From Flavobacterium johnsoniae UW101 (GTDB taxonomy: Bacteria; Bacteroidota; Bacteroidia; Flavobacteriales; Flavobacteriaceae), in assembly GCF_000016645.1 (NCBI RefSeq), contig NC_009441.1, positions 3,534,001 through 3,598,000 of the forward strand: a stretch of 64,000 nt of DNA. The letters run 5' to 3'. The translations under genes and the position numbers were made by a program. This document shows positions 16,885 to 62,571 of this stretch, piece by piece; position 1 is the stretch's first letter, and every line of letters starts with the position of its first letter. The notes under the pieces are model-generated. The model was not told the DNA's origin and searched no databases. It saw only the letters and a program-made list of their open reading frames with translations.

Positions 16885-16901
16885 TTTCTATAGATTTTGG
16901 A

Positions 16902-42028: not shown

Positions 42029-42034
42029 GACATG

Positions 42035-43489: not shown

Positions 43490-43567
43490 GACTTTGTTTT
43501 TTTGGTTAATAATCGAAAGTAGTGCCCGCGCCCGCGCCGGCAATAGTGCTGGCACCGGATGTCCGCG

Positions 43568-43879
43568 TTAGTCTCCAATCGGCTTTCTCCTGGCGGTATG
43601 TGCGGAAAAGCTCTCCCGTATGAATTGCTGCACGTCCGAAAGCTTGTAATAGATCTTTCCGCTGATCGTATAATAGCAGAGCCTTCCCGAGGACCTGTAG
43701 CGCTGTAGCGAACGCGAACTTATTTTAAGCATCTGCAGGACATCCTGGTTGTCAAGAAGCTCCTCCCCGTCTATGGCTATATTTTTCCTCTTGCTTTCGC
43801 CTACCATCTCGCTAAGGATGTCGAACCGCTCCATAATGCGTTCCATCCAGGCCATAAATTCCAATCGCTCCACGTTCAT
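43568..43879 (-). CDS. Helix-turn-helix protein, excisionase-like
   Basis: A 103-residue protein; MNVERLEFMAW at 43879 is the likeliest start. After an N-terminal helix comes an HTH_17/MerR-like domain (LLDNQDVLQMLKISSRSLQRYRSSGRLCYYTISGKIYY), the form of small excisionases and AlpA-like proteins. It leads the DUF3945-topB operon, the place taken by xis2c/xis2d in CTnDOT, so a role as recombination directionality factor or regulator is likely. Confidence 0.8.
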   Translation of the reverse strand: MNVERLEFMAWMERIMERFDILSEMVGESKRKNIAIDGEELLDNQDVLQMLKISSRSLQRYRSSGRLCYYTISGKIYYKLSDVQQFIRESFSAHTARRKPIGD

Positions 43880-43932
43880 AATCCAGTATTTTTGAGTTGC
43901 ACACTGCAAAATTGCATACTACGCAGATCAAT

Positions 43933-43970
43933 ATCTGCCAAGCTCTGCCCATTGGCAGATTCATTTTTTC
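43933..43970. promoter_or_regulatory. Inverted repeat upstream of the excision operon
   Basis: A perfect 9-base inverted repeat ATCTGCCAA/TTGGCAGAT (43933-43941, 43952-43960) is followed by TCATTTTTTC. On + it resembles a terminator, but no + strand gene ends here. Lying about 55 bases in front of the HTH gene it may be a protein-binding site. Confidence 0.45.
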
Positions 43971-43990
43971 GTTTCGCGGCAGCATAAATC

Positions 43991-44024
43991 AGCCCCATTT
44001 GACCGCTAGCGGACAAATGGGGCT
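43991..44024. promoter_or_regulatory. 34-base palindrome between rteC and the excision operon
   Basis: The outer arms AGCCCCATTTG (43991-44001) and CAAATGGGGCT (44014-44024) surround the perfect palindrome CCGCTAGCGG (44003-44012), with one mismatched A on each side. No U-run follows on either strand, so it is unlikely to be a simple terminator. RteC of CTnDOT binds an inverted repeat upstream of the excision operon promoter, and this site has the right position. Confidence 0.55.
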
Positions 44025-44108: not shown

Positions 44109-44951
44109 CTAAAGCTCTTTGTCCATATACTGCTCCAAGGACGTCTTGAGGTGGTCCAAAAAGGAAGTCCTCGTTCCGGCCCTGTCCTTCATCCTGTGGA
44201 AGGAATGATGAACGTCTCCCAGAGGAATACGGAAAAGCAGCTGAAAAACAAGGCTTATCCTGCGTATGCCGATCTTACCGTGCGAAACCACTCCTGATGC
44301 GTAAAGTGCATAGATAAGTTCGATAAGCGCGTTTTTGGAATCCGTCCAGAAAATTTCTTTGGAGGATTCCGTCCCTGCGGGGAAAGAATGCGAAGATTCT
44401 TCTGGATTTATCTTCGTTGTAAGATAATTATAGATCAGCTCATTGGCGATTATTCTTGCAATCTTATTGTCATAATAGGTCGAAAACCTGTGGTCTATCT
44501 CGAAAACATAGCTGTTCAGCCCATCGCTGTAATTGATCTTTCCCCGTAAAAAGTATTCATCATCCCGGTCATTTCTCCCTGATTTGTAATAACGGTAAAA
44601 GTTTGTGCTGAAGATGCATTCTTTGAACTGGGCTTTGAGCTGTTGGAGATGGCTCATGAAAAATTTCTGATGGACCTGCCCTTCCCTTACCGGACAGATG
44701 GTCTCTATGCGGAAAACTTTATTGTAGAAGATCAATTTCCCTAGAATCAGGGGCTTGATATTCCTGAAAAAATCGATCTCCTCAGCCTCATCCTCGAATC
44801 CCTTTTCCAGCACATGCTGGCGGACCGTCTGGAGCACCTCCCTCAGATAGAGTGTCATCTGATGGGCTTCATCAATGAGATGGGCGGTCTGGCAGGATAA
44901 CTTGTCTTCTTTAATAGTGATTTGGGAAATAATGGAATGCAGTGAATTCAT
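44109..44951 (-). CDS. rteC: RteC family regulator of excision
   Basis: About 280 residues from the ATG at 44951 (MNSLHSIISQ); a longer frame to 45026 is less likely. The sequence matches RteC: a helical N-terminal half (LILGKLIFYNKVFRIETICP) and a C-terminal part (YYDNKIARIIANELIYNYL; WTDSKNALIELIYALYASGV). In CTnDOT, RteC activates the excision operon. Here that operon lies directly downstream on the same strand with a 34-base palindrome between. No rteA/rteB pair and no tetQ are visible. Confidence 0.88.
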   Translation of the reverse strand: MNSLHSIISQITIKEDKLSCQTAHLIDEAHQMTLYLREVLQTVRQHVLEKGFEDEAEEIDFFRNIKPLILGKLIFYNKVFRIETICPVREGQVHQKFFMSHLQQLKAQFKECIFSTNFYRYYKSGRNDRDDEYFLRGKINYSDGLNSYVFEIDHRFSTYYDNKIARIIANELIYNYLTTKINPEESSHSFPAGTESSKEIFWTDSKNALIELIYALYASGVVSHGKIGIRRISLVFQLLFRIPLGDVHHSFHRMKDRAGTRTSFLDHLKTSLEQYMDKEL

Positions 44952-45128
44952 ACTCGAAGGATTTAATGTAACATCTTTTACAAAAATTCCGGGCGCCGCA
45001 AAAGGTGCACTGCCTGCCTTTGTCATTTGGCAGCAGAAACAGTCATTACGCCGTTCTCAAAAGCAAACCTGCTGGTAAAAGATAATACGGTTAGTTGAAT
45101 TTATTAGCATAATCGAATAGGTGCTGTA

Positions 45129-47337: not shown

Positions 47338-49014
47338 ATGGTAAAATATCTACTGGTTATCTCTTTGTGCTTTGCTTGTTATGTTAATGCACAAAAAACC
47401 ATTTCCAGAATTCCTGACACCTTGAAAAGCGCGGATTTTGACTATCTGTTTGACCGTATTGAAATTCAGGGCCAGAATGACTCTCAAAGAGAAATCTACC
47501 TTAAGGCTTTTTTGGATAAGGCCAAATTGGAGAAAAATTGGGAGGAGCTTTCAAATGCCTACAAGAATTATGTCCATTATGCTCCTGCAGCCCTAAAGCT
47601 CATCTATGCAGACAGCATGGTCATGGCTGCCAAAAAATCGAATGACAATTCAATCATCGGTTCGGCCTACCTGTCAAGAGGCGTGGCCTACTATGGGCAG
47701 AAGCGTCTTAGAAAAGCAATGGACAGCTATCTGATTGCTGATAAGTACATATCCAAAACAGATGATGGCTACCTCATCCATAAGACCAAATACCAGATTG
47801 CCCAGATTAAATTCTATCTCGGATATTACCATGAAGCCATCTCGCTATTTAACCAGTGCATAGCGTATTTTAAGGATAATGATGCCAGGGCTTACCTGAA
47901 TTCCCTGCATTCGCTTGGAGCCTGCTACAAAATGGTGGGAAACCACGGTATGAGCACCGAAATCAACAGGCTTGGAATTGCAGAGGGAAAACGAACCGGA
48001 AACCTGGACATGCAGCATTACTTTGTGCAGTCGGAGGGAATAAACCAGTGCATGATCCACAATTACCAGTCTGCTCTTCATAAATTGCAGTCCTCCCTGG
48101 CCGCTATCCGCTCCAACGGCGACTTTTCAAATGAAATGGTAAGCAGTTTTTATATCGGCAGATGCTATTGGGGCCTTAATGAAAAGGAAAAAGCACTGCC
48201 TTACTTCAAAAAAGTGGATCTGGGGTTTTCGCAGCATGCATATATGAGGCCTGATTTGAGGCAGGCTTATGAATATATGATCTCCTACTACAGGGACAGG
48301 AAGATGATTGAGGCGCAGCTGCACTACGTGGAACGCCTCCTGGCAGTGGATAAGAAGCTTCACGTGACCTATGCCTATCTTCAGGGAAAAATCAGAAAGG
48401 AATATGAAACCCAGGATCTTTTGAGGGAACAGCAGATCCTAAGACATTCCGTTGAGAGCCAGAAAAATAACGACCGCATATCCATATCGGTTATCAGCAT
48501 ACTTTTTCTGCTTATCTTGTTAGGGATAATATGGTTCTTCAAAAGCAGAAGCGAATCGCGAAAAAAATATGAGGAGCTGCTGCAGAAAATTGAGAATGAA
48601 ACCAGAGCCAAGTCCGAGAAAACCGACGAGCTCGATTTTGCGATAAGCACCGATGTCGAGCAGGCGGTGCTGCAGTCCCTGAAAAAATTTGAGGCGGGAA
48701 GGAAATTTCTGGAAAAAGACCTTGATCTCACCAAACTGGCGGGCCATTTCAATACCAATACCAGATATCTGTCAATTATAATTATGCGCCACAGAAGCCA
48801 AAAGTTCAACCAGTACATCAATTCCCTTAAGATAGACTACATCGCCAAGAGGATACGCAATGAGAAGATCCTCCAGAACTATACGCATGAATCCCTGGCT
48901 CTGGAAGCCGGATTCTCCACTACCCGGCGGTTCGTAAAGGCTTTTGTAAGCTTTACCGGGATAACACCAAAATATTTTATAGAAGAATTAAGAAAGGAAG
49001 AGAACATTCCATAA
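47338..49014 (+). CDS. TPR-containing membrane regulator with AraC-type HTH
   Basis: A 558-residue protein. It has a signal peptide (YLLVISLCFACYVNAQ), a periplasmic run of TPR-like helices (about 90-370), one membrane segment (ISISVISILFLLILLGIIWFF, about 381-401), and a cytoplasmic coiled-coil. It ends with an AraC-type HTH (about 460-550, with HESLALEAGFSTTRRFVKAFVSFTGITPKYF). This architecture is common in Bacteroidota and couples an envelope signal to transcription. It is divergent from the lipoprotein pair, a plausible target. Confidence 0.85.
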   Translation: MVKYLLVISLCFACYVNAQKTISRIPDTLKSADFDYLFDRIEIQGQNDSQREIYLKAFLDKAKLEKNWEELSNAYKNYVHYAPAALKLIYADSMVMAAKKSNDNSIIGSAYLSRGVAYYGQKRLRKAMDSYLIADKYISKTDDGYLIHKTKYQIAQIKFYLGYYHEAISLFNQCIAYFKDNDARAYLNSLHSLGACYKMVGNHGMSTEINRLGIAEGKRTGNLDMQHYFVQSEGINQCMIHNYQSALHKLQSSLAAIRSNGDFSNEMVSSFYIGRCYWGLNEKEKALPYFKKVDLGFSQHAYMRPDLRQAYEYMISYYRDRKMIEAQLHYVERLLAVDKKLHVTYAYLQGKIRKEYETQDLLREQQILRHSVESQKNNDRISISVISILFLLILLGIIWFFKSRSESRKKYEELLQKIENETRAKSEKTDELDFAISTDVEQAVLQSLKKFEAGRKFLEKDLDLTKLAGHFNTNTRYLSIIIMRHRSQKFNQYINSLKIDYIAKRIRNEKILQNYTHESLALEAGFSTTRRFVKAFVSFTGITPKYFIEELRKEENIP

Positions 49015-49099
49015 TAGTAAAGCAAAATAATCACAGTCCAACTTTGCTTTTCTGTAAAAGTTTTTAAAACGAGGTTTCAATGGTTAATGATCAAATTTT

Positions 49100-50158
49100 C
49101 TATAACTTTTCTAAATCCGAATCTATTTTTAGTATTTTATCCAGTAAAAAATTTCCGAATTCTTTAGTCAGTTTAAGTTTGTCCGCCCCTCTCATTAAAC
49201 TGCCGAAACTGTTTTTCCCACTTGGAGTTATGTCTAATGCAGTATTCTGTAAAAAGAAATTTTTCTGATTGGTAACAGTTATATGCTGTTGTGCCCATTC
49301 TCTCCCATAATTCGGCGTTAAATTCTCACCGACAAAATAATACGGCCATCTGTCGTTTTCATTTCCTGTATTTTCAAGTCCAGAATTAACCCTATATATT
49401 GAAAGAATATTTAAATGTCCTACCGCATAACAGATAAGGATATCCCCTCTCCTTACTCCCCTTGGTTTTAACTTTGAAAAATGCAGATTGCTATCCACCT
49501 CATCAAATTTTTCAGATAGGGGAATTGTATCATGTGACACGCCAATAGGTTTTAGCCAAAATGTTGCACTGGTCTCTATTTGAAGATAATTTTCCCTGCT
49601 TTCAAATAGTAAGGACAAATTTAGCTTGATCGGATTGATGTCTCCTTTCGGTTCTGGAGTGTCATTAATCTTTTCCAGACAGGCATCAATTTTCTGTTCG
49701 TTAAAACTCTTGAATTTTATCTTGTCTATTATTCCATTTTTAACTTTGCGTATTTCCACCGCATCTTCAATTAATATACCCCACTCGTTGTTGATCCTAA
49801 GACCTCTGTCTGTGAAGTTTGCTGAAGTTATGATTGCTTTTGCTGAACCATCAGTATTCTCACCTATGAATATCTTGCCATGCAGGAAATTATCAATTAG
49901 GATTTCAAACTCTATATTTCTTGAATTAAAAATGTTATAAAGCTCTTTGAAATAATTTATTTTGGAGTATTGATCTTTATCAAAAGGCTTTAATGTAGTC
50001 ACGACAGTGACCTTCTCAAGACTATTAAACTCAGCAAAGTCTAAAAGGGCAATGTTTTTTGTAATATACGGGCTAATGATAAAGACATTTTTAGCACCTT
50101 GAAAAATTTGCTTTACATGATGCAAATGATTTTGCCTTGTGAGGTTATTAATAATCAT
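49100..50158 (-). CDS. PLD-type nuclease with PUA/EVE-like C-terminal domain
   Basis: A 352-residue protein. The N-terminal domain is phospholipase-D-like, with FIISPYITKN and one H-x-K motif (H93-G-K95) followed by TSANFTDRGL (111-120), as in single-HKD nucleases that dimerise. The C-terminal domain (about 198-300) has the order of a PUA/EVE-like fold: FWLKPIG, then GDILICYAVGHLNILSIYRVNSG and WPYYFVGENLTP. EVE/PUA-like domains read modified bases, so the fusion looks like a modification-sensing nuclease. The domain call is by eye. It is the last gene of a tight four-gene minus-strand operon. Confidence 0.7.
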   Translation of the reverse strand: MIINNLTRQNHLHHVKQIFQGAKNVFIISPYITKNIALLDFAEFNSLEKVTVVTTLKPFDKDQYSKINYFKELYNIFNSRNIEFEILIDNFLHGKIFIGENTDGSAKAIITSANFTDRGLRINNEWGILIEDAVEIRKVKNGIIDKIKFKSFNEQKIDACLEKINDTPEPKGDINPIKLNLSLLFESRENYLQIETSATFWLKPIGVSHDTIPLSEKFDEVDSNLHFSKLKPRGVRRGDILICYAVGHLNILSIYRVNSGLENTGNENDRWPYYFVGENLTPNYGREWAQQHITVTNQKNFFLQNTALDITPSGKNSFGSLMRGADKLKLTKEFGNFLLDKILKIDSDLEKL

Positions 50159-50196
50159 TGTTGGTCTTATTCTTCTATGGTTATAAAATCTGTTTA

Positions 50197-51180
50197 TTAT
50201 CTTATCCTTTCCAGATTGGTTATATATTTTTTGCAGTATCTTCCTGTCTCGTTATCACGCAGTCCTTTATTTAGTGTGTACCCTCCGCCAAGTGCAATAC
50301 CTAATGCTCCCAATATTTCCTTCACATATTCCGGAGCGGTTGCCGCTGGGTTTTTAATAAGCATATAAGCGGCAAACGGTATTGAAGCCAATCCTATCCC
50401 TGTCAAGACCACCTGCCTGCTGAACTCGGAATAAATATTGTTGTAGCTGTTTATAAAGTCCTGCTCGCTATAGCCCTCACCTATTTTCTCTTGGATATTT
50501 TGAAGTTCTGAGTTGAATGCCCTTAAATAATCCCTATTATTTTCACGAAACTCAATCAGCCTTTCAAAGGGTATATCTGCCAAATTTTTAGGAATAAGAA
50601 GATTGATGATTCCTTTGGCAAATTTGGTCGTCCTGTTCAAGCTCGGAGTTGTAGAACGGGAGTAATTGGTAAAATTGTCGTATTTGTTATTGTCGGTTAT
50701 TATCGCTGCAGATTCCTCAAATGCAATTTCCTTTGCCAGATAGGTCATAAATAGAAACGCCAGCTCCTCAGGCAGCATTATGCCGTTCTCGGTTCTGCGT
50801 CCAATATTGTTTCGCTCACAATAATCCGCCCATATGTCTGAGAATTTTTCATGGTAAACATTAAAATTCCAATTAGCACTATTTTCCCACTTTCTGATCA
50901 AGTTTGCACTATTGAATAAAAGACTTCTATCGTGCGTGCGGTCAAAGATTTTATCTACTTCTTCGATGGCTTTCAGCGAGGCTCTGTATCCCACATCCGC
51001 TCCAGGGCTGTACGGTCTTATTAAATCCGTATTCTCTATTATCCTTGTATAATTGTCACTAACCAGTCTGCGGCGGCTGTAAGGAATAATAGGCCTGAAA
51101 TTTTCGAAATATAATAATGAAAATTTAAGCCAAGCATCAGTTGGCGGCTCAAAAGTCGGATAATAAATAAGTGGCTCCAT
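50197..51180 (-). CDS. DUF6236-like protein with C-terminal hydrophobic segments
   Basis: A 327-residue protein. The N-terminus (LIYYPTFEPPTDAWLKFSLLYFENFRPIIP) resembles DUF6236 proteins, whose function is unknown and which often occur in accessory regions. A hydrophobic stretch near the C-terminus (about 277-310, VVLTGIGLASIPFAAYML and EILGALGIALGGGYTL) could insert in a membrane. It lies 25 bases after the previous gene and 38 before the PLD nuclease gene. Confidence 0.6.
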   Translation of the reverse strand: MEPLIYYPTFEPPTDAWLKFSLLYFENFRPIIPYSRRRLVSDNYTRIIENTDLIRPYSPGADVGYRASLKAIEEVDKIFDRTHDRSLLFNSANLIRKWENSANWNFNVYHEKFSDIWADYCERNNIGRRTENGIMLPEELAFLFMTYLAKEIAFEESAAIITDNNKYDNFTNYSRSTTPSLNRTTKFAKGIINLLIPKNLADIPFERLIEFRENNRDYLRAFNSELQNIQEKIGEGYSEQDFINSYNNIYSEFSRQVVLTGIGLASIPFAAYMLIKNPAATAPEYVKEILGALGIALGGGYTLNKGLRDNETGRYCKKYITNLERIR

Positions 51181-51205
51181 TATTTAACAGTTTTATAATT
51201 TAATT

Positions 51206-51952
51206 TTACAATTCCTTTCTTCCGTATTTATACAAAGCACTATTAATTTGTAAAGCGGTTGTTCCGCTGATTTTCGCAATTTTCACAATATGCGAATGAA
51301 CCATAATGCACGTGGCGTAATTATCAGAAAGTGTCCCCTTATTTTCTTCCAGCCAATGCAGGTCGAAATCCTTCATGAAGGAAAAGCCCTCGTTTTTTAA
51401 ACGCACAATGCCTCTATCTACCTCCAATCCAGTCGGCATGACAATAGCATCGATTCCATCATTTTGCCAAAACCGCTTCTGATCTTCCAAAATAATTTTA
51501 AAAGCACCTAAAAAAAGCCATGGGCCTATCCCAATAACTTCTCCATTATCTCTAAACACAGTTAATTTATTTAGAAGCCTTTGCTGCAGAACATTGATAT
51601 CTTGGATTGAACAAACATTGAAATCCGGCATTAGGTTCTTTACCCTGTTTAGATAAATTCTAAAATTTGTAAGCGCAGTATCCAATCCTTCTTCTCCAAA
51701 CCTTAGACTGTATAATTTTGCAATTTTTGGATCTTTTGCTATTGCAGCATCAATATATGCTGACGCATAAAAAATAAAATCATCATCATATTTTGCATGT
51801 CCGGTCCAGCTTAATGAAATTGCACAGGCAATTGCAAAATAGCTATGGGGAAGAGTCCGAAAAAAATGATGGCTGCGGTCATGTAACTCCTCGCAGAAAA
51901 TTTGGCCGTTTTTACCGAGGTAATCTGCAATCTCTTTATCTGATTTCGTCAT
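51206..51952 (-). CDS. Unrecognised protein in the four-gene operon
   Basis: A 248-residue soluble protein, largely helical, with no signal peptide. Notable stretches are LHDRSHHFFRTLPHSYFAIA near the N-terminus and GEVIGIGPWLFLGAFKIIL in the middle, which has a helix-hairpin-helix look (GIGP). That might mean DNA contact, but I cannot name a family. The gene follows the metallopeptidase gene by 27 bases and precedes the DUF6236-like gene by 25. Confidence 0.6.
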   Translation of the reverse strand: MTKSDKEIADYLGKNGQIFCEELHDRSHHFFRTLPHSYFAIACAISLSWTGHAKYDDDFIFYASAYIDAAIAKDPKIAKLYSLRFGEEGLDTALTNFRIYLNRVKNLMPDFNVCSIQDINVLQQRLLNKLTVFRDNGEVIGIGPWLFLGAFKIILEDQKRFWQNDGIDAIVMPTGLEVDRGIVRLKNEGFSFMKDFDLHWLEENKGTLSDNYATCIMVHSHIVKIAKISGTTALQINSALYKYGRKEL

Positions 51953-51979
51953 TTTTCTAATTCACTTAATTACGAAAAT

Positions 51980-52918
51980 TTATCCTATTTTTTTGGCCTG
52001 TTCTAGTAAATCATAGAAAACATCCTTAATGGTAGTACAGATTCTATTTTCAATTAATCCTAAGCCATATTGTCTATCCCAAGTCTTAATAAACAAGCAC
52101 AATGTTGTCCATATTTCACTATCTTCTGATGGCTGCAGAATTTCAATAGCATTTTCTATCCGCTGGTCTACATCAGGATGGGTGCTTCCTCCCTTTAAGG
52201 AATTCTTTATAAACAGTATAGAGGCTAGACCCATAGCAATCGCGATTTCGGCTTTCTGCCTGTTTTTGGAATTCTGTATTAATAATTCAATTGCACGTGA
52301 ATCAGCTTCAATTTCCAAATCCTTAATTTCTTCATTAGAGAGCTTTCCTTCTTTGATTTTTTTTATATGCTGAAATTCAGCATGAGCAGTTTCATGATAA
52401 AGAATAAAATTCAATACTTCAACAAATAAATCATTGACATGCAGAATATAATTGCCCTGCGGACTTTCCTCATCAAAATATTCAGGGTTAGGCAATGTTT
52501 CCTTATCCCAATCTGTGAACCCCGTAACCAAAGTGAGTGCATAACTGAACAGGTCCTCTGCTTCACTTAAAAGCTCATCGCTATATGGCCTGCTTTCCAT
52601 CTCTCCCTTATCAATCAGATTTGGAAGCGCATATTTTTCTTCATGCAGTACAACAAAATAATAACAGTTAATCCAAATGTAGGATAAGAATGTTTCGTGG
52701 ATGTTTATTAAACCATTTTCATAGATAAAAGGACCTTGCCTATTATTTAACGGTAAATTTTGATCATGGTATTGTATCTTTTCGTCCAGAATTGAACTAG
52801 ACTGAAGTGATTCTATATACTCTTTGTTTCTATTAACAAGTCTTGTCGTTAAATTATGCTTTAGGACTCTAATCGGCTGTTTTCCGCTATGTGAATTCTG
52901 CCATACGCTTTTTTTCAT
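51980..52918 (-). CDS. HEXXH metallopeptidase, Lit/M48-like
   Basis: A 312-residue soluble protein. The zinc motif is H175-ETA-H179 in ILYHETAHAEFQH; a downstream E-x-E-A-D (202-206, LEIEADSRAIELL) supplies the third ligand as in gluzincins, and STHPDVDQRIENA (245-257) resembles the end motif of M48-type enzymes. The layout also resembles the Lit phage-exclusion peptidases, which cleave elongation factor Tu on infection. No membrane segment is present, unlike most M48 enzymes. It is the first gene of the four-gene operon; the substrate is unknown. Confidence 0.7.
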   Translation of the reverse strand: MKKSVWQNSHSGKQPIRVLKHNLTTRLVNRNKEYIESLQSSSILDEKIQYHDQNLPLNNRQGPFIYENGLINIHETFLSYIWINCYYFVVLHEEKYALPNLIDKGEMESRPYSDELLSEAEDLFSYALTLVTGFTDWDKETLPNPEYFDEESPQGNYILHVNDLFVEVLNFILYHETAHAEFQHIKKIKEGKLSNEEIKDLEIEADSRAIELLIQNSKNRQKAEIAIAMGLASILFIKNSLKGGSTHPDVDQRIENAIEILQPSEDSEIWTTLCLFIKTWDRQYGLGLIENRICTTIKDVFYDLLEQAKKIG

Positions 52919-53141
52919 CTAATATATTAATGTATTATGAAGTTATTTTTTCTCCCCTTTCTAAGTAAGTATTAGTAATGTTCATTAATCAAACAAATAA
53001 GTACGAATCGCAAAGTATATTTAAACATTGGATTGATTCAAATCAAAAAATGAATGCTTACCGTTCTGATCTCATTTGAAATATAAATTAATCATCTACC
53101 AATTTATAATTTCCGTACGCAATATGTTAGTTTAATCTTAT
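52919..53141. other. AT-rich intergenic region before the metallopeptidase operon
   Basis: 223 bases between the papain-like gene and the four-gene operon, very AT-rich. Its length suggests that the operon has its own promoter. No perfect TAnnTTTG on the minus strand was found by eye. Confidence 0.4.
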
Positions 53142-54260
53142 TTAAACATACTTTAGTAATTCTTCATATTGAACAAGAGCACCGACTAATAGATCTGTGT
53201 ATGAGCGATACATGTTAAATAAAATATGATACGTCTTGCTGGGACAGCCAAGAAAATTTTTCAATGTATTTTCTTCATCTTCTTTTATCCTTTTATATGT
53301 TTCTGATATTGAATCAGTATAAAATTTAATATCATCCTTACTTGGGCCAAAAGAATTAAACTTCCAATAATATAAGGGGAAGAATTGTTCTGGATATTTA
53401 TGTATTTCCTCAAACCAGAGCATATTATACTTACTGGAAAGGATTAATTCAGACAATTCTTCGTCAATTTTTTTTCCGGTTTCCGAAAGGAACCATCGAG
53501 TTAGGTTTGGTAAAATATCCTCCCAGCTGCTGAAACCTAAATTTTCTTCTGCAATACGAATATCTTCGTACTTTTCAGGATGCTGAGTAATATCTCGATA
53601 TTTATGCTGGACATACGTATTTAATTCCACAACTATAGCCGCCTGCTTCTCAAGTATAGAACCTGTTTCATAAGTAGTGAAGTAATTATATGCATCTTTT
53701 CTTAAATCTTTTTCCTTGATTTGTTGAAATGTTGATGCTGTTACATCTATAAAATCTTTATGCTTTTCAATATCACCAAAATGGGCATAAAAAGGTTCGT
53801 TTTTTGATGAAAAATCTACACCCCCAGCATAATATGGAAGTGTGATTAAAGAAGTGCAAACGATGCCGTTCCTCCAGATTTTCTTTTCAAGAAAGTCGGT
53901 TATAACATCTTCGTCGATGTTTTTTTTATTAATATGATACAAAAGCCTTTTTGAGTAATTGCAGGAAGCCAGGCTTCTTAATGCTCTTTCAGCAGCTGCT
54001 CCATTAAAACTTTTTCCGGCTGCATCACTTAGCCTTAAGATCTTGACATCCTCAAGATCTGGGAAATAATATCGATGATAGGAAAACAGAGTAACTACTG
54101 GTTCAATTCCTTCTACAAATGCCCCGCCTCCTAAATAAATTATGGCATGACTGTACTCTGAATTACAGTTCTCTCTAATCTGTTGACTACTTTCACTTTC
54201 TGGAAACCTGACTAGCAGAATGTCAAACTGCTGCAGGCTGTGGATATCTATTTGGTACAT
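53142..54260 (-). CDS. Permuted papain-like (YiiX/NlpC-P60-type) hydrolase
   Basis: A 372-residue protein. The N-terminal 140 residues carry the circularly permuted papain pattern: QFDILLVRF, then His38 in YSHAIIYLG, Glu50 in AFVEG, and the nucleophile Cys135 in GIVCTSLIT. The C-terminal 230 residues are helical and unrecognised. There is no signal peptide, so it should act in the cytoplasm, which argues against a simple cell-wall role. It lies 223 bases upstream of the metallopeptidase operon on the same strand. Confidence 0.65.
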   Translation of the reverse strand: MYQIDIHSLQQFDILLVRFPESESSQQIRENCNSEYSHAIIYLGGGAFVEGIEPVVTLFSYHRYYFPDLEDVKILRLSDAAGKSFNGAAAERALRSLASCNYSKRLLYHINKKNIDEDVITDFLEKKIWRNGIVCTSLITLPYYAGGVDFSSKNEPFYAHFGDIEKHKDFIDVTASTFQQIKEKDLRKDAYNYFTTYETGSILEKQAAIVVELNTYVQHKYRDITQHPEKYEDIRIAEENLGFSSWEDILPNLTRWFLSETGKKIDEELSELILSSKYNMLWFEEIHKYPEQFFPLYYWKFNSFGPSKDDIKFYTDSISETYKRIKEDEENTLKNFLGCPSKTYHILFNMYRSYTDLLVGALVQYEELLKYV

Positions 54261-54456
54261 AAATTTTAAAAAGATTTCTTGTTTTTACGGTTCAGGTTAA
54301 CTGCTTGGTCCCATTTTTTATTTTTTAAAACAAACCTATATTGACATATTGGCATTAACGTACGGTTTTCCGTAATTTGTTTTAAAAAGTTGCAAAATAA
54401 TCTTTTAATGATGGAATGTTTACAGTACTAATACCTGTTTTATTAAAAAAATGGCA

Positions 54457-54483
54457 TAAAAAAAGATGCTCACAGGCATCTTT
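54457..54483 (-). terminator. Terminator of the XRE gene
   Basis: The stem AAAGATGC/GCATCTTT (54462-54469, 54476-54483) with a 6-base loop is followed, read on the minus strand, by a run of U from the A-tract at 54457-54464. It lies 45 bases after the XRE stop. Confidence 0.7.
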
Positions 54484-54527
54484 CTCTATTTCATAGTAAT
54501 ATATTAAATTAGACATTCTTGAACTTT

Positions 54528-54776
54528 TTAATCAAAATTAAATAATTCTCTTATATCTACATTCAACTCCATAGCTATTGAAAATAAGGTTTCAATTTTC
54601 GGATTAGTTTGACCTCTTTCTATTTTTCCAATGTGATTTTTAGCATATCCTGTTCTCAACCCTAATTCTTCTTGTGAAATTGGCTTGCCATTATCTTTAT
54701 TAATACACTGATTTCTCAGATGCATAATTCTTTTTCCTAATTTGATTCTCTCTTTTTTAAAACCATCTTCTTCCAT
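54528..54776 (-). CDS. XRE-type helix-turn-helix regulator
   Basis: An 82-residue protein made almost wholly of one HTH_XRE domain: KRIMHLRNQCINKDNGKPISQEELGLRTGYAKNHIGKIERGQTNPKIETLFSIAMEL. Such small repressors often control defence or mobile-element genes. It heads the minus-strand accessory block (hydrolase, metallopeptidase operon), and its upstream region is also next to the structured RNA locus. It has its own terminator. Confidence 0.88.
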   Translation of the reverse strand: MEEDGFKKERIKLGKRIMHLRNQCINKDNGKPISQEELGLRTGYAKNHIGKIERGQTNPKIETLFSIAMELNVDIRELFNFD

Positions 54777-54794
54777 AATATAAAAATCGCTTTT

Positions 54795-54826
54795 AAAAAA
54801 AAGAAAAAAGGCAATCTACAGATTGC
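54795..54826 (-). terminator. Minus-strand terminator upstream of the XRE gene
   Basis: The inverted repeat GCAATC/GATTGC (54811-54816, 54821-54826) is followed, on the minus strand, by a C and a run of T (A-tract 54797-54809). It would stop a transcript arriving from the right before it reaches the XRE gene. Confidence 0.55.
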
Positions 54827-54872
54827 TTTGTAAAAAAATTTTACTATATTTGTTTTTTAATATATAAATTTG
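54823..54872 (+). promoter_or_regulatory. Bacteroidetes-type promoter reading into the structured region
   Basis: TTG (54823-54825), 19 bases, then TATATTTG (54845-54852) fits the -33/-7 consensus TTG...TAnnTTTG. A second perfect -7 box, TAAATTTG, is at 54865-54872. Both point toward the structured region at 54905; no open reading frame follows for about 580 bases. Confidence 0.6.
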
Positions 54873-54904
54873 CGATAACTTCATAGAAAATATTTGAAGC
54901 ATTC

Positions 54905-55093
54905 GCTTTGAACCTTGCACTAGAAAAAACTGGACACTTTTTCAACCGCGCGCAAGAAGATAAGTGTAAATGCTCACGCCATAAACGGCGTGGGCTCACT
55001 TATGCGCGCAAGGTAGTCCAGTAAATCCTTCTAGTGTGTAAGTTGAGACTAACCCACGCCTACTTTTTTAGGCGAAATCCAACTTCTCAAAGC
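54905..55093 (+). ncRNA. Candidate structured non-coding RNA
   Basis: About 190 bases form nested stems: GCTTTGA/TCAAAGC (54905/55087), CACTAGAA/TTCTAGTG (54918/55029), ACTGGAC/GTCCAGT (54929/55016), GCGCGC (54948/55004), ATAAGTG/CACTTAT (54960/54997), CACGCC/GGCGTG (54975/54987), AAGTTG/CAACTT (55040/55080) and CGCCTA/TAGGCG (55057/55069). The segment GGCGTGGG (54987-54994) can instead pair with CCCACGCC (55053-55060), giving two alternative folds. A promoter precedes it. It lies 358 bases before the susC-like gene. No match to a known RNA class is apparent to me; strand is inferred from the promoter. Confidence 0.5.
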
Positions 55094-55450
55094 AAATTCC
55101 TTAAATTCTAAAGAAACGCATTCATTTGTTTAACCTTTAAGAAGGTCAGATATGATGTAATAATTGTTCTGTTTTTGTAATGCCTGGCCCGAAACGGTAT
55201 TGCCATTGAATTAGTTTTAGGGCCGGGTCATTGCCCAGCAGGTTCAGCATATGTTTAGCAACAGGCTGAAAAATCACAATCTAATTTTTGAAATCTTAAT
55301 AAATGCGCCAATGAAATAACTTTTTTACCACAAAATTTGAAGCTCGGCATCAAATGCCGCTTCAAAAAAGCAGTCCCCTACCGCAGCGACTAAACTAGTG
55401 TAGAGGACCTTAGCTAATCAAAACCAAGTTCAACTAACCAATCCAATATT
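55094..55450 (+). other. Leader region of the SusC-like gene, further hairpins
   Basis: No gene is seen. Hairpins include GGCCC/GGGCC (55186/55220), a 13-pair stem at 55336-55366 (TTTGAAGC..GGCAT/ATGCC GCTTCAAA) and GTCCCCTAC/GTAGAGGAC at 55373-55381/55400-55408 with one mismatch. The SusC start is at 55451. Long leaders with regulatory structure are usual for SusC/D genes, but their function here is inferred. Confidence 0.45.
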
Positions 55451-58400
55451 ATGAATTATTTTTCATTTTTCAAGGGTGGGAAAGCTATTTATTGCCTAAT
55501 TTTTACAGGCTTTCTTCTGTCTTTCTCACCTTCAGCCGCAAAAAGCAGTCTGCGGCGTAGCACATCATCATTCCAACAGCATCAGGTAAAAGGAACCGTC
55601 TCCGACGGCAGCGGTCCCCTGCCTGGTGTTACTATCTCAATAAAAGGTAATTCTAAAACTACGGTGATTTCTGACTACAATGGCCATTTTAGTATTCAGA
55701 CGCCAGCCCAAGATACTTTGGTCGTTTCCTATTTAGGTTTCAAGACCGCCTACGTCCCCGTCAAAAGCCGAACAAAAATCGACATTGTGCTTCAGTATGA
55801 CACCACTACTCTGCAGGAAGTAAAAGTAAATGCAGGATATTACTCAGTAAAGGAAAGCGAACGGACTGGAAGCATTGCCAGAATTACGTCTAAAGATATT
55901 GAAAGCCAGCCCGTGACAAATGTATTGGCCACGATGCAGGGCCGGATGGCTGGAGTAAATGTGACCCAGACCACAGGGATACCAGGCGGGGGATTTGACA
56001 TACAGATCCGGGGGCAGAACAGTATCCGTACAGAAGGCAATGCTCCACTGTACATAATTGACGGTGTACCCTACGCCTCTGATGCCATTGGTTACAGCCA
56101 GACATCCACGGTTACTCCTTCCGTCACGAGTCCCTTGAATAATATCAATCCCGATACAATTGAAAGTATCGAGGTGCTGAAAGATGCAGATGCCACGGCC
56201 ATCTACGGGTCCCGCGGTGCAAACGGCGTAGTGCTGATAACAACCAAAAAGGGCAAAGAAGGTAAAACCAGATTTACAATCAATGCTTCAACCGGTGCTG
56301 GAAAAGTTGCGCGCTTTATAAAAATGATGGACACACAGCAGTATCTTTCCATGCGCCGGCAGGCATTCATAAATGATAAAATAAATGCATACCCCGCTAA
56401 TGCCTATGATCTCAATGGAGTATGGGACCAGAACCGTTCCACAGACTGGCAAAAAGAATTGATTGGAGGTACATCTACTATTACGGACATGCAGGGCACC
56501 ATAAGTGGCGGATCAAAAAGTACCCCGTTTCTTATCAGTTCCAGCTATCATACGGAATCTTCCGTACTTCCCGGCAGCTTTATTTATAAAAAGGGAGGAA
56601 CACATCTCAGTCTTAACCATACCTCTGAAGACGACAGTTTCAACTTTACCTTCTCTGGGGGCTACAATGTACAGAACAGCAACCAGCCTGCCACTGACCT
56701 GACCAGTGACTCGCGCAGCCTTCCTCCCAATGCACCATCCTTATACGACGCGAATGGAGACCTCAACTGGGAAAAAGGAACATGGAGCAATCCATTGGCC
56801 AAACTTTTGGCCGAAAACAAATTTAAAACCAAAGATTTCACAGCAAACACCGTACTAACCTATCAGATAATCCCTGATTTGGTGCTGAAAAGCAGTTTCG
56901 GCTACACCGATCTCCAGCATTATGAGCACCGCACTTCGCCGTCCACGATGTATAATCCTTGCTCGGGATTAAACAGTTCCAATTCCAGTATATTGATGAC
57001 TAACACTAAACGATCATCATGGATCATCGAACCTCAGCTTGCCTGGGACAGCAGTTTAGGAAATGGAAAAATAAATATTCTTATTGGCGGAACTTTCCAA
57101 CAGCAGAACAGCCAGCAGCTGTCCCAGCTAGGAACAGGCTTTACTTCCAACAGCCTTATTTACGATCTTGCATCGGCTACTTTTAAAGAAGTCATTTTTA
57201 GCAACGAGACCATTTACAAATATCAAGCTTTCTTTGCAAGGGCAAATTACAACTGGCAGAACCGCTATATTGTAAATTTGACCATGCGTCGTGATGGTTC
57301 AAGCAGGTTCGGTCCTGGAAAACAATTTGCCATGTTTGGAGCGGTCGGTGCAGCCTGGCTGTTCTCGAAGGAGAACTGGTTTCGGGACAGTTCCTGGCTT
57401 AGTTTTGGGAAACTCCGCGCCAGCTACGGAACGACAGGAAGTGACCAGATTGGTGATTATCAGTTTTTTGACACCTACAACTCTACTGGTATATCTTATG
57501 AAAACATCATTGGATTACAGCCTTCCCGACTGTTTAATCCTGATTTTGCGTGGGAAATCAATAAAAAACTGGAGGCCGCACTAGAGGTCGGATTTTTTAA
57601 AGACCGTATTTTCTTTACATCGGCATGGTTCCGCAACCGGTCATCAAATCAACTCGTAGGAATTCCTCTTCCAGCCACCACAGGATTTACACAGCTTCAG
57701 GCCAACCTTGGAGCGGAAGTTCAGAATGCTGGATGGGAATTTACGCTCCGCACCGAAAACTTCAATAGTAGGCATTTCAATTGGAACAGTAGCGTGAATG
57801 TAAGCTTTATGAGTAACGAACTGTTAAGCTTTCCCGATTTAGGCAGCTCTACCTACAAAAACAGGTATCGAATAGGAGAATCCCTGAACATCCTACTGCG
57901 ATACCAGTACACGGGAGTTGATCCCGTAAAGGGCGTCTATACATTTGCCGATCAAAACAGTGATGGCAGAATCACCTCCCCTGACGACAGGCAAACGATT
58001 GTCAATCTTAATCCCGACTATTTCGGAGGATTTCAGAATCAGCTACGTTTTAAAAATTGGAAACTTGATTTTCTTTTTCAGTTTGTTAAGCAGCGTAATC
58101 TGAATTACGGCAGCGGACTTGCTGGACTGATGATCAACCAGCCAGTAAAGATGAATAATAGCTGGAATAGTGCGACACAAGATGCTCAGTACCAATTATA
58201 TTCTGCCGGATACAGTTCGGCCGCTGTAGCATCCCAGTCGTTTTACACGAACAGCGATGCCACCGTAGCTGATGCCTCCTACGTACGCCTGAAAACGCTG
58301 GCACTTAGTTACGACGTGCCACTGGCTTCCAAAACTGTTCTGTGCACACTTATGATTCAAGGGCAAAACCTTCTGACTTTTACGCCATATATGGATGGTG

Positions 58401-58474
58401 ATCCTGAATTTAAAAGCAGGGGCTATCTGCCTCCCCTAAAAATAGTGACAGCAGGCCTGCAATTAACTTTTTAA
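55451..58474 (+). CDS. SusC/RagA family TonB-linked outer-membrane protein
   Basis: A 1007-residue protein with a signal peptide (about 1-30), a CarboxypepD_reg-like domain (VKGTVSDGSGPLPGVTISIKG, about 47-70 onward), and a TonB plug with PLYIIDGVPY and ATAIYGSRGANGVVLITTKKG. A long C-terminal beta-barrel ends in an aromatic residue (GLQLTF). It imports a glycan or peptide with the SusD partner, whose start follows the stop directly. The neighbouring S9 peptidase suggests a peptide substrate. Confidence 0.95.
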   Translation: MNYFSFFKGGKAIYCLIFTGFLLSFSPSAAKSSLRRSTSSFQQHQVKGTVSDGSGPLPGVTISIKGNSKTTVISDYNGHFSIQTPAQDTLVVSYLGFKTAYVPVKSRTKIDIVLQYDTTTLQEVKVNAGYYSVKESERTGSIARITSKDIESQPVTNVLATMQGRMAGVNVTQTTGIPGGGFDIQIRGQNSIRTEGNAPLYIIDGVPYASDAIGYSQTSTVTPSVTSPLNNINPDTIESIEVLKDADATAIYGSRGANGVVLITTKKGKEGKTRFTINASTGAGKVARFIKMMDTQQYLSMRRQAFINDKINAYPANAYDLNGVWDQNRSTDWQKELIGGTSTITDMQGTISGGSKSTPFLISSSYHTESSVLPGSFIYKKGGTHLSLNHTSEDDSFNFTFSGGYNVQNSNQPATDLTSDSRSLPPNAPSLYDANGDLNWEKGTWSNPLAKLLAENKFKTKDFTANTVLTYQIIPDLVLKSSFGYTDLQHYEHRTSPSTMYNPCSGLNSSNSSILMTNTKRSSWIIEPQLAWDSSLGNGKINILIGGTFQQQNSQQLSQLGTGFTSNSLIYDLASATFKEVIFSNETIYKYQAFFARANYNWQNRYIVNLTMRRDGSSRFGPGKQFAMFGAVGAAWLFSKENWFRDSSWLSFGKLRASYGTTGSDQIGDYQFFDTYNSTGISYENIIGLQPSRLFNPDFAWEINKKLEAALEVGFFKDRIFFTSAWFRNRSSNQLVGIPLPATTGFTQLQANLGAEVQNAGWEFTLRTENFNSRHFNWNSSVNVSFMSNELLSFPDLGSSTYKNRYRIGESLNILLRYQYTGVDPVKGVYTFADQNSDGRITSPDDRQTIVNLNPDYFGGFQNQLRFKNWKLDFLFQFVKQRNLNYGSGLAGLMINQPVKMNNSWNSATQDAQYQLYSAGYSSAAVASQSFYTNSDATVADASYVRLKTLALSYDVPLASKTVLCTLMIQGQNLLTFTPYMDGDPEFKSRGYLPPLKIVTAGLQLTF

Positions 58475-59890
58475 ATGAAAATAATTATGAGAACACTTTA
58501 TAGAACTGAAAAAAACATTTCCAGCCTCATATTCAAAAGAGCCTTCTTTTTCGGCACTTTGCTTATGCTGCTTTCCTGTGATTCCTTTGTTGAAGTTGAT
58601 CTGCCTAAATCCCAGCTGACCAGTACGGCTGTATTCAGGGACTATGCTTCTGCCAATGCAGCTATGGCCGATGTATATTCGAAAATGCGTGACGTCGGTA
58701 TGCTTACAGGAGGACTATATGGTCTATCAGTGCAACTAGGAAATTATACTGATGAATTAACTTTTTATGGATCACCAACAAGCCCAACCGCATCGTTTTT
58801 TGCCAACACCATTCTGCCAAGTAACAGTACAATTTCACTTTTATGGAATAATACCTACAATCAGATCTATGAAACTAATGCAATTTTAAACGGTGTAGAA
58901 GGTACTTATTTAAATATACAACAAAGAACGCAACTGGGAGGCGAAGCCTATTTTGTGCGCGGATTACTACACTTTTATCTTCTGCAGTTATATGGTCCAA
59001 TTCCTTATATTAAATCTACGGACTATAAGCAAAATTCTGAAACATCGAGACTACCAGTAGAAAAGGTTTACCAATATATTATCGAAGATTTAAAGAAAGC
59101 AGAACAAATGCTTTCACAACAATATTCTTCCACCGAAAGGACTCGTCCGAATTCTTTAACTGCAAAAGCTTTGTTGGCAAAAATTTATCTATATCAAGGA
59201 GCTTGGGATGAAGCCGATCGTATGAGCAGTTCAATTATAGAAAATTCATTGTACAAAATTGAAGTAAACCTAAATAAAGTTTTTCTAAAAAATTCAACCG
59301 AAACAATCTGGCAGTTTATGCCAGCTTCAGCAAGCAAAAACACTGATGATGCAGTGAATTATATTTTTGTATCCGGTCCGCCGCCGCTAATGTCGTTAAG
59401 CGAATCATTAGTTAACAGTTTCAGTGCGGAAGATCAAAGAAAGAGCATGTGGATCGCTTCTTTGACCAGTCAAAGTGGAAAATGGTATTATGCAAATAAA
59501 TATAAAGAGTCAAAACCTACTACACCTTCAAGAGAATATACCATTATAATGAGGCTCTCTGAACAATACTTAATTCGAGCAGAAGCAAGAGTCTATTTGC
59601 AAAATTTAACTGGTGCAGTTGACGATTTAAACAAAATCAGAAATCGCGCAGGAATTCGAAACGTTACAGAAGGCACAGCTGAAGAAATTCTAGAATACAT
59701 TCTCTCAGAAAGAAGAAAAGAACTTTTCACTGAAAATGGGCACAGATTTTTTGATCTAAAACGAACTGGAAAACTTGATACAGAATTAGGAAATAAACCT
59801 GGTTGGAAATCAAGCTATGAGCTTTTACCAATACCTGAAACTGAAATAACTTTAAATCCTAATCTTAAGCCTCAAAATACTGGCTATTAG
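58475..59890 (+). CDS. SusD/RagB family lipoprotein
   Basis: A 471-residue surface lipoprotein; signal peptide with lipobox cysteine C35 (LLMLLSCDSF). The typical SusD pattern follows: an N-terminal TPR-like part (GEAYFVRGLLHFYLLQLYGPIPY), ARLPV-like SRLPVEKVYQYIIEDLKKAE, and the C-terminal RAEARVYLQNLTGAVDDLNKIRNRAGI and ILSERRKELFTENGHRFFDLKR. It captures the substrate over the SusC barrel. It begins one base after the susC-like stop. Base composition becomes more AT-rich from about 58750 onward. Confidence 0.95.
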   Translation: MKIIMRTLYRTEKNISSLIFKRAFFFGTLLMLLSCDSFVEVDLPKSQLTSTAVFRDYASANAAMADVYSKMRDVGMLTGGLYGLSVQLGNYTDELTFYGSPTSPTASFFANTILPSNSTISLLWNNTYNQIYETNAILNGVEGTYLNIQQRTQLGGEAYFVRGLLHFYLLQLYGPIPYIKSTDYKQNSETSRLPVEKVYQYIIEDLKKAEQMLSQQYSSTERTRPNSLTAKALLAKIYLYQGAWDEADRMSSSIIENSLYKIEVNLNKVFLKNSTETIWQFMPASASKNTDDAVNYIFVSGPPPLMSLSESLVNSFSAEDQRKSMWIASLTSQSGKWYYANKYKESKPTTPSREYTIIMRLSEQYLIRAEARVYLQNLTGAVDDLNKIRNRAGIRNVTEGTAEEILEYILSERRKELFTENGHRFFDLKRTGKLDTELGNKPGWKSSYELLPIPETEITLNPNLKPQNTGY

Positions 59891-59913
59891 ATTTTTAAAA
59901 ACTTTAAAAAATT

Positions 59914-62571
59914 ATGAACATCCTAAATAGTGTATTTAAGATACATAGAAGAAACTTAAATATAATATTACTTCTAATTTTAAATTTAGTTATGCAATTG
60001 GCTACCTGCTCTCTATGGGGGCAGGCAATGCAAAAGAGGGCACTGACTGTCGAGGACTATTTAAAATGGGGAGAGCTAACCCTTGATAATGTTGGTACGA
60101 AGGGATTGTGGGCAAGTTACACCATCAAATATGAAAGTGATAAAGATACGCTTTATGTAAAAAATACAAAATCAGAAAAAACATATAGTTTTCCTTATGG
60201 ATACAAGGGTAATTTTCTTGAAAATAACTGGTTTATTTGTAAGACCCCTAGTGCAGTAAAACTTCTCAATCTTAAAACTGGACAACAAGAAGAGCTACCT
60301 GAAGTCGTGAAATATACCTACAATTCCAATACAAAACAACTTGTACTCCTAGTCAATCGAAAAAACAAAGATAGTGAAATGATCGTGCGAACTCTCGAAG
60401 GTGCAGTTCAGATGCAGATACGCGGAGTAACCGAATTTCTACCATCCCCATCAAACGAACTGATCGCATTTGTAGTTAGAACTAAGAAAGGAAGTACTGT
60501 AAACATTTTAACATTGTCAAACCAAAATAAAATAAAAATAATTGCAAGTGATCCGTATATTTTTACAGATCTTGTATGGCAAGGAAAAGAAAAAAAAGCA
60601 TTGGCTTTTTATAAAAAAACTAATAAAGAAAAGAGGTTTGAAAATAGCATATACTATTATAATTTCCAAAATAATAGACTTTATAGTACTCAACAAATTC
60701 AAGACCCTTTTTTAAGCGATACAGTATTCATTACTGTAGCAAGTCATAAAATAAAAATTTCAGATGATTTAAAACGTGTCTTTTTTATAGTACAGAAAAA
60801 GAAATCAAAGCTCAACGCAAATGATATTAGCCCACAAGTATGGTACGGAAATACCTATAATATTTATCCTCAGGAAGAAAAAGTAAGTTCTTTTAAAGAT
60901 ACATACCTGGCTCAGTGGTTACCAGAACATGAAAACTTCAAAATGATTTCTAATGACAGTCTACCTCAATTTATGCTCACCGGGACACAGAATCATGCTA
61001 TACTTTTCAACACTGTAAAATATGGCCCACAGTATGGTAAAGATGATATAAGTGATTTCTATATTTATAATCTTGACAATGATAAAACTACCCTGTTTTT
61101 GAGAAAAAACATTGCACATCCCTCGTTATTAATACCATCTCCGAGTGGAAAATTTATTTCGTATTTCCGTGACAAAAACTGGTGGATTTACAATATTGAA
61201 AAAAACACACACAAAAATATTACCCAAAACTCAGGCACTGACTTTTTTCAAAATAAAAAGCAGCATCCACGAAACGCGGATGCCTTTCAACAATATGGCT
61301 GGAGCATTGGCGATAAGGAAGTACTATTATATGACACTTGGGATCTATGGGCTTTTAAAACTGATGGGACCTCTTCACGCCGGCTAACAAAGGGCAGAGA
61401 AACAAATACGAAATTCAGACATCCTGCTTATTCAAGAATTATTCGCGGCTCCTCAAACTATAATGGTTGGATGTTGGATGGTGTAGATCTTACAAAAAGA
61501 ATTTTACTTGAACGGTTGACCGACTATGGATCGCAAGGATGTATTGAATTGGGTGCCAAAGAAAATAAAAATTTGTTAACACTTGATAATTCTCATTTTG
61601 ATCAGCTAACCCAATCTCCTGATTCTACTACATTATTTTACAGGGAGGAAGGGCATTATTTGCCACCAAGAATTGTTTTTGTAAGCACTGAAGGAGTAAA
61701 AAAAACACTAGTTCAAAGTAATCCGCAACAGAAGTCATTTTATTGGGGTAGAAACGAACTGATTTCATATAGTACTAGAGATGGAAAAGTGCATAAAGGG
61801 TTACTATATTATCCTGCGCAATATGATCCTCAAAAAAAGTATCCTATGATTGTTTATATTTATGAAAAATTTTCTAATCGACTTCACAACTATATACCTC
61901 CGACTTTGTATTCTGGGATTGGGTTTAATATTACAAATTTTACAACACAAGGTTATTTTGTACTTACTCCTGATATTTCTTATGAAATAGGAAATCCAGG
62001 AATTTCTGCAACTGAATGTATAATTTCGGCTACAAAGGAAATCATAAATAAAGGATATGTAATTCCAAACAAAATCGGGATTATTGGACATTCATTTGGA
62101 GGATATGAAACTGATTATATTATTACACAAACAGATCTTTTTGCCACAGCTGTTTCAGGTTCGGCTGTAACAGATCTATCCACCTTTTATCTATCAATTG
62201 GACCGGCAGTGGGGAAACCAGATATCTGGCGTTTTGAAAGTCAACAATTTCGAATGGGGAAATCACTTTTTGATGATCGTGATGGGTATAGGAAGAACTC
62301 GCCTATTGAACATGTTGAAAAGATTAGAACGCCATTACTCTCATGGACAGGAGACAGCGACCTTGAAGTAAAGTTAGATCAAAGCGTTGAATTTTTTCTG
62401 GCTTTGCGCCGCCTTGAAAAAAAACACATCATGTTAGTGTATCCTAAAGAAGGACACACTTTAAGAGACCATAGAAATCAAAAAGATCTTTCGGTTAGGT
62501 TAACTCAGTGGTTTGCCTATTTTTTAAAAAATGAACCACCAGCTCCATGGATCAATGAAGGATTAAAATAA
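59914..62571 (+). CDS. S9 family (prolyl oligopeptidase) peptidase
   Basis: An 885-residue protein with an N-terminal signal-anchor or signal peptide (IILLLILNLVMQLATCSLWGQ), a beta-propeller-like part (about 60-640), and a C-terminal alpha/beta-hydrolase domain. The nucleophile is Ser727 in GHSFGGYE, with Asp816 (GDSDLEV) and His848 (EGHTLRD) as the rest of the triad. It probably cleaves peptides in the periplasm that the SusC/D pair imports. It is the third gene of that operon. Confidence 0.92.
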   Translation: MNILNSVFKIHRRNLNIILLLILNLVMQLATCSLWGQAMQKRALTVEDYLKWGELTLDNVGTKGLWASYTIKYESDKDTLYVKNTKSEKTYSFPYGYKGNFLENNWFICKTPSAVKLLNLKTGQQEELPEVVKYTYNSNTKQLVLLVNRKNKDSEMIVRTLEGAVQMQIRGVTEFLPSPSNELIAFVVRTKKGSTVNILTLSNQNKIKIIASDPYIFTDLVWQGKEKKALAFYKKTNKEKRFENSIYYYNFQNNRLYSTQQIQDPFLSDTVFITVASHKIKISDDLKRVFFIVQKKKSKLNANDISPQVWYGNTYNIYPQEEKVSSFKDTYLAQWLPEHENFKMISNDSLPQFMLTGTQNHAILFNTVKYGPQYGKDDISDFYIYNLDNDKTTLFLRKNIAHPSLLIPSPSGKFISYFRDKNWWIYNIEKNTHKNITQNSGTDFFQNKKQHPRNADAFQQYGWSIGDKEVLLYDTWDLWAFKTDGTSSRRLTKGRETNTKFRHPAYSRIIRGSSNYNGWMLDGVDLTKRILLERLTDYGSQGCIELGAKENKNLLTLDNSHFDQLTQSPDSTTLFYREEGHYLPPRIVFVSTEGVKKTLVQSNPQQKSFYWGRNELISYSTRDGKVHKGLLYYPAQYDPQKKYPMIVYIYEKFSNRLHNYIPPTLYSGIGFNITNFTTQGYFVLTPDISYEIGNPGISATECIISATKEIINKGYVIPNKIGIIGHSFGGYETDYIITQTDLFATAVSGSAVTDLSTFYLSIGPAVGKPDIWRFESQQFRMGKSLFDDRDGYRKNSPIEHVEKIRTPLLSWTGDSDLEVKLDQSVEFFLALRRLEKKHIMLVYPKEGHTLRDHRNQKDLSVRLTQWFAYFLKNEPPAPWINEGLK

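Follow-up and report, generated by a model that had tools for sequence, protein, structure and literature searches.

The window analysed here, a 64,000-nucleotide stretch of the Flavobacterium johnsoniae UW101 chromosome, carries a run of four minus-strand genes headed by a gene for a Lit-family protease (Table 1). A first-pass annotation of this DNA had proposed one undescribed defence operon joining (i) a Lit-like HEXXH protease, (ii) a helical protein with a GIGP element (gene 2 in what follows), (iii) a DUF6236-like protein with a hydrophobic tail (gene 3) and (iv) a PLD nuclease fused to a probable PUA-type reader of modified bases. The open reading frame (ORF) list of the window has the four genes at the same coordinates and with the same gaps of 27, 25 and 38 bases as in that annotation. 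These gaps suggest co-expression, and an operon is a reasonable reading of the gene layout.

Table 1. Features of the run and of the slot that contains it (window coordinates)
Feature	Position	Strand	Length and family evidence
Lit-family HEXXH zinc peptidase	51980..52918	-	312 aa; NF007238, PF10463, PADLOC Lit, HEXXH
Gene 2, Lit partner, no known family	51206..51952	-	248 aa; model resembles HhH-GPD DNA glycosylases
Gene 3, DUF6236-like, hydrophobic C-terminal stretch	50197..51180	-	327 aa; PF19749
PLD-family nuclease, NgoFVII type, last gene of run	49100..50158	-	352 aa; PF09565, PF13091
Cargo gene	53142..54260	-	372 aa; 223 bp upstream of lit; no family above threshold (Pfam, PADLOC, NCBIfam)
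XRE-type regulator	54528..54776	-	PF01381 45.1 bits; PADLOC Control_protein 31.3 bits
TPR-AraC regulator, left border of slot	47338..49014	+	PF13424 and PF12833 above cut-off
SusC-type TonB receptor, right border of slot	55451..58474	+	1007 aa; named by eye
SusD-type protein (471 aa) and 885-aa protein, after SusC in constant frame	58475..62571	+	named by eye

The Lit protease and gene 2

Judged from its sequence, the first gene is a member of the known Lit family. Its product scores above the NCBIfam equivalog cut-off for NF007238, 'phage exclusion protein Lit' (343 versus 274 bits), and above the Pfam cut-off for PF10463, Peptidase_U49 (46.5 versus 23.9 bits), and it matches the PADLOC Lit profile at 66.4 bits. 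Residues H175, E176 and H179 of the HEXXH motif, together with E202 and D206, are invariant in all 12 aligned Lit proteins. The NF007238 score is possibly circular, since only the window protein and Escherichia coli Lit (349.8 bits) score high and both may therefore be seed members; a Spirosoma Lit reaches 80.4 bits, and five of the six other Flavobacterium Lits, with that of locus L040 left out, reach 113.9–148.8 bits. The direct identity between the window and E. coli proteins is 20%.

E. coli Lit is reported to cleave EF-Tu at Gly59-Ile60 upon production of the Gol region of the T4 head protein (PMC3014915); a second paper notes overproduction of both (PMC9712102). The EF-Tu of this genome carries RGITI at ORF positions 59–63, and thus the target site exists here. 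The window protein and the Lit of prophage e14 in E. coli K-12 belong to the same HEXXH peptidase family and are similar in size, but their genes are set differently. E. coli lit sits between ymfE and intE and is alone on its strand, whereas the window lit heads a four-gene run and adjoins the gene for a glycosylase-like protein.

Lit was detected in 8 of the 398 Flavobacterium genomes, a count that includes this one. In six of them the Lits are distant (26–40% identity), and gene 2 is absent from the 16-kb stretch around each. A PF10463 search of 395 Bacteroidota genomes gives matches in this genome and one other, where a 16.5-kb stretch has no BLAST match to the Lit or gene 2 of the window. 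Phage records hold no Lit match, and a scan of a viral collection returned 13 pattern-matching stretches and no relatives. Plasmids carry two distant Lits (Spirosoma, 28%; Acinetobacter, 26%), with gene 2 named beside neither. One of the distant Flavobacterium Lits (40%; locus L037, 7687–12307) lies in a run with an SMC-like AAA ATPase of 696 aa (AAA_15 at 30.6 bits, just below the cut-off), a 148-aa protein and a 381-aa protein that is trypsin-like by eye, an arrangement that resembles ABC three-component systems.

Gene 2 has no family in Pfam (none at E ≤ 1), PADLOC or NCBIfam, and its one PHROG match is at chance level (E 0.012). A structure model with a mean predicted local distance difference test score (pLDDT) of 95.1 predicts an all-helical fold. 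Ogg/AGOG glycosylases occupy rows 1–9 of its structural matches, and the queuosine enzyme DUF2419 comes next. With the HhH-GPD glycosylases (AGOG, OGG2/MjOgg and EndoIII) and DUF2419, gene 2 shares the predicted all-helical fold and a GIG hairpin, the latter within the previously noted GIGP element at residues 141–144. Moreover, W145 is kept in 29 of 30 aligned rows and E177 in all 30, the two being 32 residues apart, and this pair is spaced like K140 and D172 of AGOG (PMC9638937).

No sequence similarity to HhH-GPD glycosylases was found, however, and hhalign comparisons with small Nth/MutY sets, which have low power, gave no match. The AGOG lysine corresponds to Trp in gene 2 and the aspartate to Glu or Thr: gene 2 has T174-G-x-E177 where these enzymes have their catalytic Asp, a position judged from sequence rather than from coordinates. 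Because the catalytic Asp after a Gly/Pro-rich loop is absent, we do not file gene 2 as an HhH-GPD member, and treat the HhH-GPD glycosylase-like fold of its model as a lead.

If this lead is correct, the defence locus would contain a glycosylase-like protein in gene 2, comparable in this respect to the anti-phage DNA glycosylases Brig1 and Brig3. The fold class of uracil DNA glycosylases differs from HhH-GPD. Uracil DNA glycosylases are reported as the best structural matches of Brig1 (PMC11078745), whereas the gene 2 model matches HhH-GPD-type enzymes instead. The operon partner of Brig3 is the sugar hydrolase BapA (PMC13160076) and not a protease, whereas gene 2 adjoins Lit. A figure legend in the DefensePredictor paper (PMC13092281) names aGPT-Pplase and UDG, and no HhH-GPD protein appears among the anti-phage papers listed from our literature search.

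Gene 2 has 47 relatives in protein tables and is found in 1 of 395 Bacteroidota genomes, 3 of 398 Flavobacterium genomes and 1 of 249 genomes of a family sample, each count including this genome. The third Flavobacterium match is weak and partial (E 9e-4) and lies on a 9.6-kb contig with an HTH match and without a Lit match. Plasmids hold no gene 2 match, and the viral scan gave 59 pattern-matching stretches and no relatives. A further match, to a 1007-aa SusC-type ORF of locus L041 (27% over 81 residues, E 2e-4), is taken as chance.

Gene 3, the PLD nuclease and conservation of the run

The link of gene 3 to DUF6236 is less firm than first proposed. A precomputed table assigns PF19749.5 to the protein, but the copy that we searched (PF19749.4) gives 24.9 bits, below the cut-off of 26.2, in a match confined to residues 193–230. 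DUF6236 is named nowhere in the literature searched. The hydrophobic tail is evident at residues 257–275 (Kyte-Doolittle 2.01), and values above 1.6 occur somewhere in 31 of 33 aligned rows. The gene 3 family comprises 129 proteins at E ≤ 0.001, itself included.

The PLD protein scores above the cut-offs of PF09565, the NgoFVII type (42.3 versus 23.8 bits), and PF13091 (31 versus 27 bits), and the two residues singled out in the first-pass annotation, H93 and K95, are invariant in 30 of 30 aligned rows. At E ≤ 0.001 it has at least 188 relatives. PF09565 and the H93-x-K95 motif are shared with NgoFVII-type PLD restriction nucleases, and restriction endonuclease 2c1l is a weak profile match (E 0.18). 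Unlike NgoFVII-type systems, the six same-strand cargo and frame genes of the window include no methyltransferase. The proposed modified-base reader found no confirmation: no PUA or EVE match was obtained in Pfam, PADLOC or NCBIfam, and a PDB profile search gave two matches (E 0.18 and 0.88), neither of them PUA or EVE by name. An EVE resemblance of the C-terminal half, which has no family assignment, is seen by eye only.

Co-occurrence of the four genes differs among relatives. All six genes from the PLD gene to the XRE-type regulator are present in the same order in F. defluvii, with identities of 94% (Lit), 99% (gene 2), 92% (gene 3), 89% (PLD) and 97% (the 372-aa cargo protein, which its motif marks, by eye, as papain-like/YiiX). 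Apart from this window, F. defluvii was the one place in which all four genes were seen together. In a third Flavobacterium genome (G651; 18-kb locus L027), Lit (80%) and gene 2 (90%) remain adjacent, with a different 382-aa protein upstream and no match to the 372-aa protein. That stretch has no match to gene 3 or PLD, and gene 3 is without a match in the whole genome. An ORF at L027 7563–9838, a serine recombinase by eye, starts inside the gene 2 copy near residue 214–224, and the insertion point of a mobile element may fall within this gene.

Gene 3, for its part, was traced to 20 loci, 19 of which, all but that of F. defluvii, lack Lit, gene 2 and PLD (tblastn, 1e-4), with the limit that several of these loci are short (the shortest 3.8 and 5 kb) and that L020 and L021 are truncated or split. 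A few of the gene 3 relatives stand beside different defence genes. Neighbours include a Shedu C-terminal protein (L016), an AAA_13 ATPase (L003) and a GmrSD-like protein by eye (G499, locus L044); elsewhere they often appear ordinary or unknown. At L015 (284–9787) and L006 (161–8984) a DUF5131 gene ends 3 bases before the gene 3 relative, and GmrSD, methyltransferase and GMT-wHTH genes belong to the same run; in L015 another PLD protein follows. The viral scan with gene 3 gave 89 pattern-matching stretches and no relatives, and plasmids hold one distant match (Aeromonas, 24%), around which the retrieved sequence is unannotated.

The slot between the TPR-AraC and SusC genes

Relatives of the TPR-AraC regulator at E ≤ 1e-60 are found in 39 of 121 Flavobacterium genomes at 58 places, this window included. 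We sampled 20 of the 58, of which 19 rank among the 25 with the best scores and one scores lower; two other copies from this genome are included. The order SusC–SusD–885-aa protein follows TPR-AraC in 16 of the 20 regions, the 885-aa match being partial in L083. The four regions without it are L084, L085, L086 and L095, of which L084 and L086 end at contig ends. The distance from TPR-AraC to SusC ranges from 914 to 10,784 bases. A short HTH-type ORF is seen by eye beside SusC in 15 of the 16 slots (none was seen in L088). Because it is present even where there is no other cargo, the XRE-type regulator of the window probably belongs to the constant frame of the slot and not to its cargo.

The slot contents are rich in catalogued defence genes. 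Fifty slot ORFs with a length of 100 aa or more (HTH ORFs make up a few) match 307 PADLOC families at 1e-5, including a type I methyltransferase (7.6e-194) and Septu PtuA (1.5e-189), versus one family with two members for 55 control ORFs downstream of the 885-aa gene at 15 of the 16 loci; these figures count families, many of them redundant, rather than slot proteins with a match, and the control genes, being partly homologous to one another, represent fewer than 55 independent cases. The same borders recur around distant relatives of the run: at L039 a distant Lit, and at L044 a gene 3 relative, is flanked by SusC and TPR-AraC matches, and at L041 SusC lies beside a distant Lit. Two further copies of the frame exist in this genome: in L094 genes fill a gap of 7.3 kb, and L100 is nearly empty.

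The run thus appears to be cargo, one of several interchangeable anti-virus cassettes in a slot beside an outer-membrane receptor gene. Both the Lit family membership of the first gene and the contents of this slot support the defence role originally proposed, which we regard as likely. No paper joining Flavobacterium, a phage defence hotspot and Lit was found, and, going by titles and the starts of abstracts, none of the papers found on receptors, defence islands and hotspots describes a TPR-AraC/SusC slot. The slot is a simple place to look for more Flavobacterium defence genes, possibly uncatalogued ones.

Comparison with F. defluvii in 500-base bins shows mostly 87–99% identity from 42 to 55.5 kb of the window, with 91.6–99.4% in the cassette bins. 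Lower values occur at 46.5–47.5 kb (78 and 81%) and at the gene 3/PLD junction, 50.0–50.5 kb (76%). From about 56 kb the identity drops to about 60% inside SusC (window about 55900–58600). This drop suggests that a recombined segment ends within the receptor gene, though divergence confined to the receptor is also compatible with it.

Models for the cassette

The explanation that fits best, which we hold tentatively and with a little less than even confidence, is a defence cassette in the SusC-side slot whose core is a two-gene abortive-infection unit, Lit plus a DNA-binding gene 2 of HhH-GPD-like fold, with the DUF6236-like and PLD proteins as separable modules. In the uninfected cell Lit would be latent. 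Gene 2 would bind phage DNA by flipping out a modified or damaged base, which it might also excise, and this recognition would activate Lit or bring it to its target. Lit may then cleave EF-Tu at the conserved RG|ITI site, so that translation would halt before phage release, while the PLD nuclease may cleave invading DNA as a second line. The killing would thus fall to Lit, with gene 2 as a DNA-directed partner, and gene 3 and PLD would be additional modules. In favour of the pairing, Lit and gene 2 adjoin each other in three Flavobacterium genomes, in one of which the upstream gene differs and both downstream genes are absent. The functional pairing, trigger and target in this scheme are those that we infer from the observed gene order, families and slot, the predicted fold and the EF-Tu site.

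Among the relatives seen, Lit more often lacks a nearby gene 2 than has one (it does so in six of the eight Lit-bearing Flavobacterium genomes, and in E. coli e14), and independent action is therefore a serious rival, although we consider it somewhat unlikely. Here the genes would merely share the slot: Lit would need no partner, with a capsid peptide as its trigger as in E. coli, gene 2 would be a separate glycosylase that strips modified bases from phage DNA in the manner of Brig1 and Brig3, and DUF6236 and PLD would be independent of both. The many different defence genes of the slot are consistent with this, and DNA glycosylases acting alone are reported to protect against T4 or its 5-hydroxymethylcytosine (5hmC) mutant (PMC11078745, PMC13160076). 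Yet the gaps within the run suggest co-expression, the Lit–gene 2 pair persists amid different cargo, though at one locus only, and gene 2 lacks the canonical catalytic residues of a glycosylase.

A single system in which protease, DNA-binding protein, membrane protein and nuclease act together, the original proposal, is unlikely. In its favour are the identical gene order in F. defluvii and a hint of one more joint locus: the protein tables give a longest contig of 41427 bases both for a relative of gene 2 (92%) and for one of gene 3 (98%). Since L027 keeps only Lit and gene 2, gene 3 occurs without the other three in 19 loci and PLD relatives far outnumber those of gene 2, the four genes are, however, a mosaic rather than one conserved system. 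A non-defence role, in which the genes form a toxin-antitoxin or regulatory cluster linked to the SusC/SusD locus, would suit the constant neighbourhood of an HTH regulator and receptor genes but is very unlikely, since the cargo differs from slot to slot and restriction and Septu-type genes are part of it.

What most deserves further work is the pair of Lit and gene 2 and the slot beside the receptor gene. For Lit-type proteases outside E. coli, an adjacent partner of glycosylase-like fold would make the question of the trigger directly testable. A bolder form of the two-gene explanation, which we think quite improbable, is that a Lit-type EF-Tu protease is under the direct control of a glycosylase-like sensor that flips bases, and that this unit is swapped, together with the XRE regulator and the first part of the TonB receptor gene, as one recombining block. 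If this were true, recognition of phage DNA bases would be coupled to translation arrest, and a possible point of entry for a phage would move between genomes along with the defence that backs it.

Several minor features of the window complete the description. A Bacteroidota promoter pattern has three sites in the window (3.65 expected) and none in the cassette; the gap upstream of lit holds a near match, by eye only. Sigma-70-type sites number 45, versus 26.1 in shuffles, and were not used in interpretation, and repeats within 48900–55500 are read as chance. The G+C content is 0.48–0.55 at window positions 1–2000, 12001–20000 and 40001–44000, compared with 0.33–0.39 across much of the window, which may point to foreign DNA. 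RteC regulators are typical of conjugative transposons, and an RteC-family regulator lies 4 kb from the cassette (44109–45026; PF09357, 242.9 bits).

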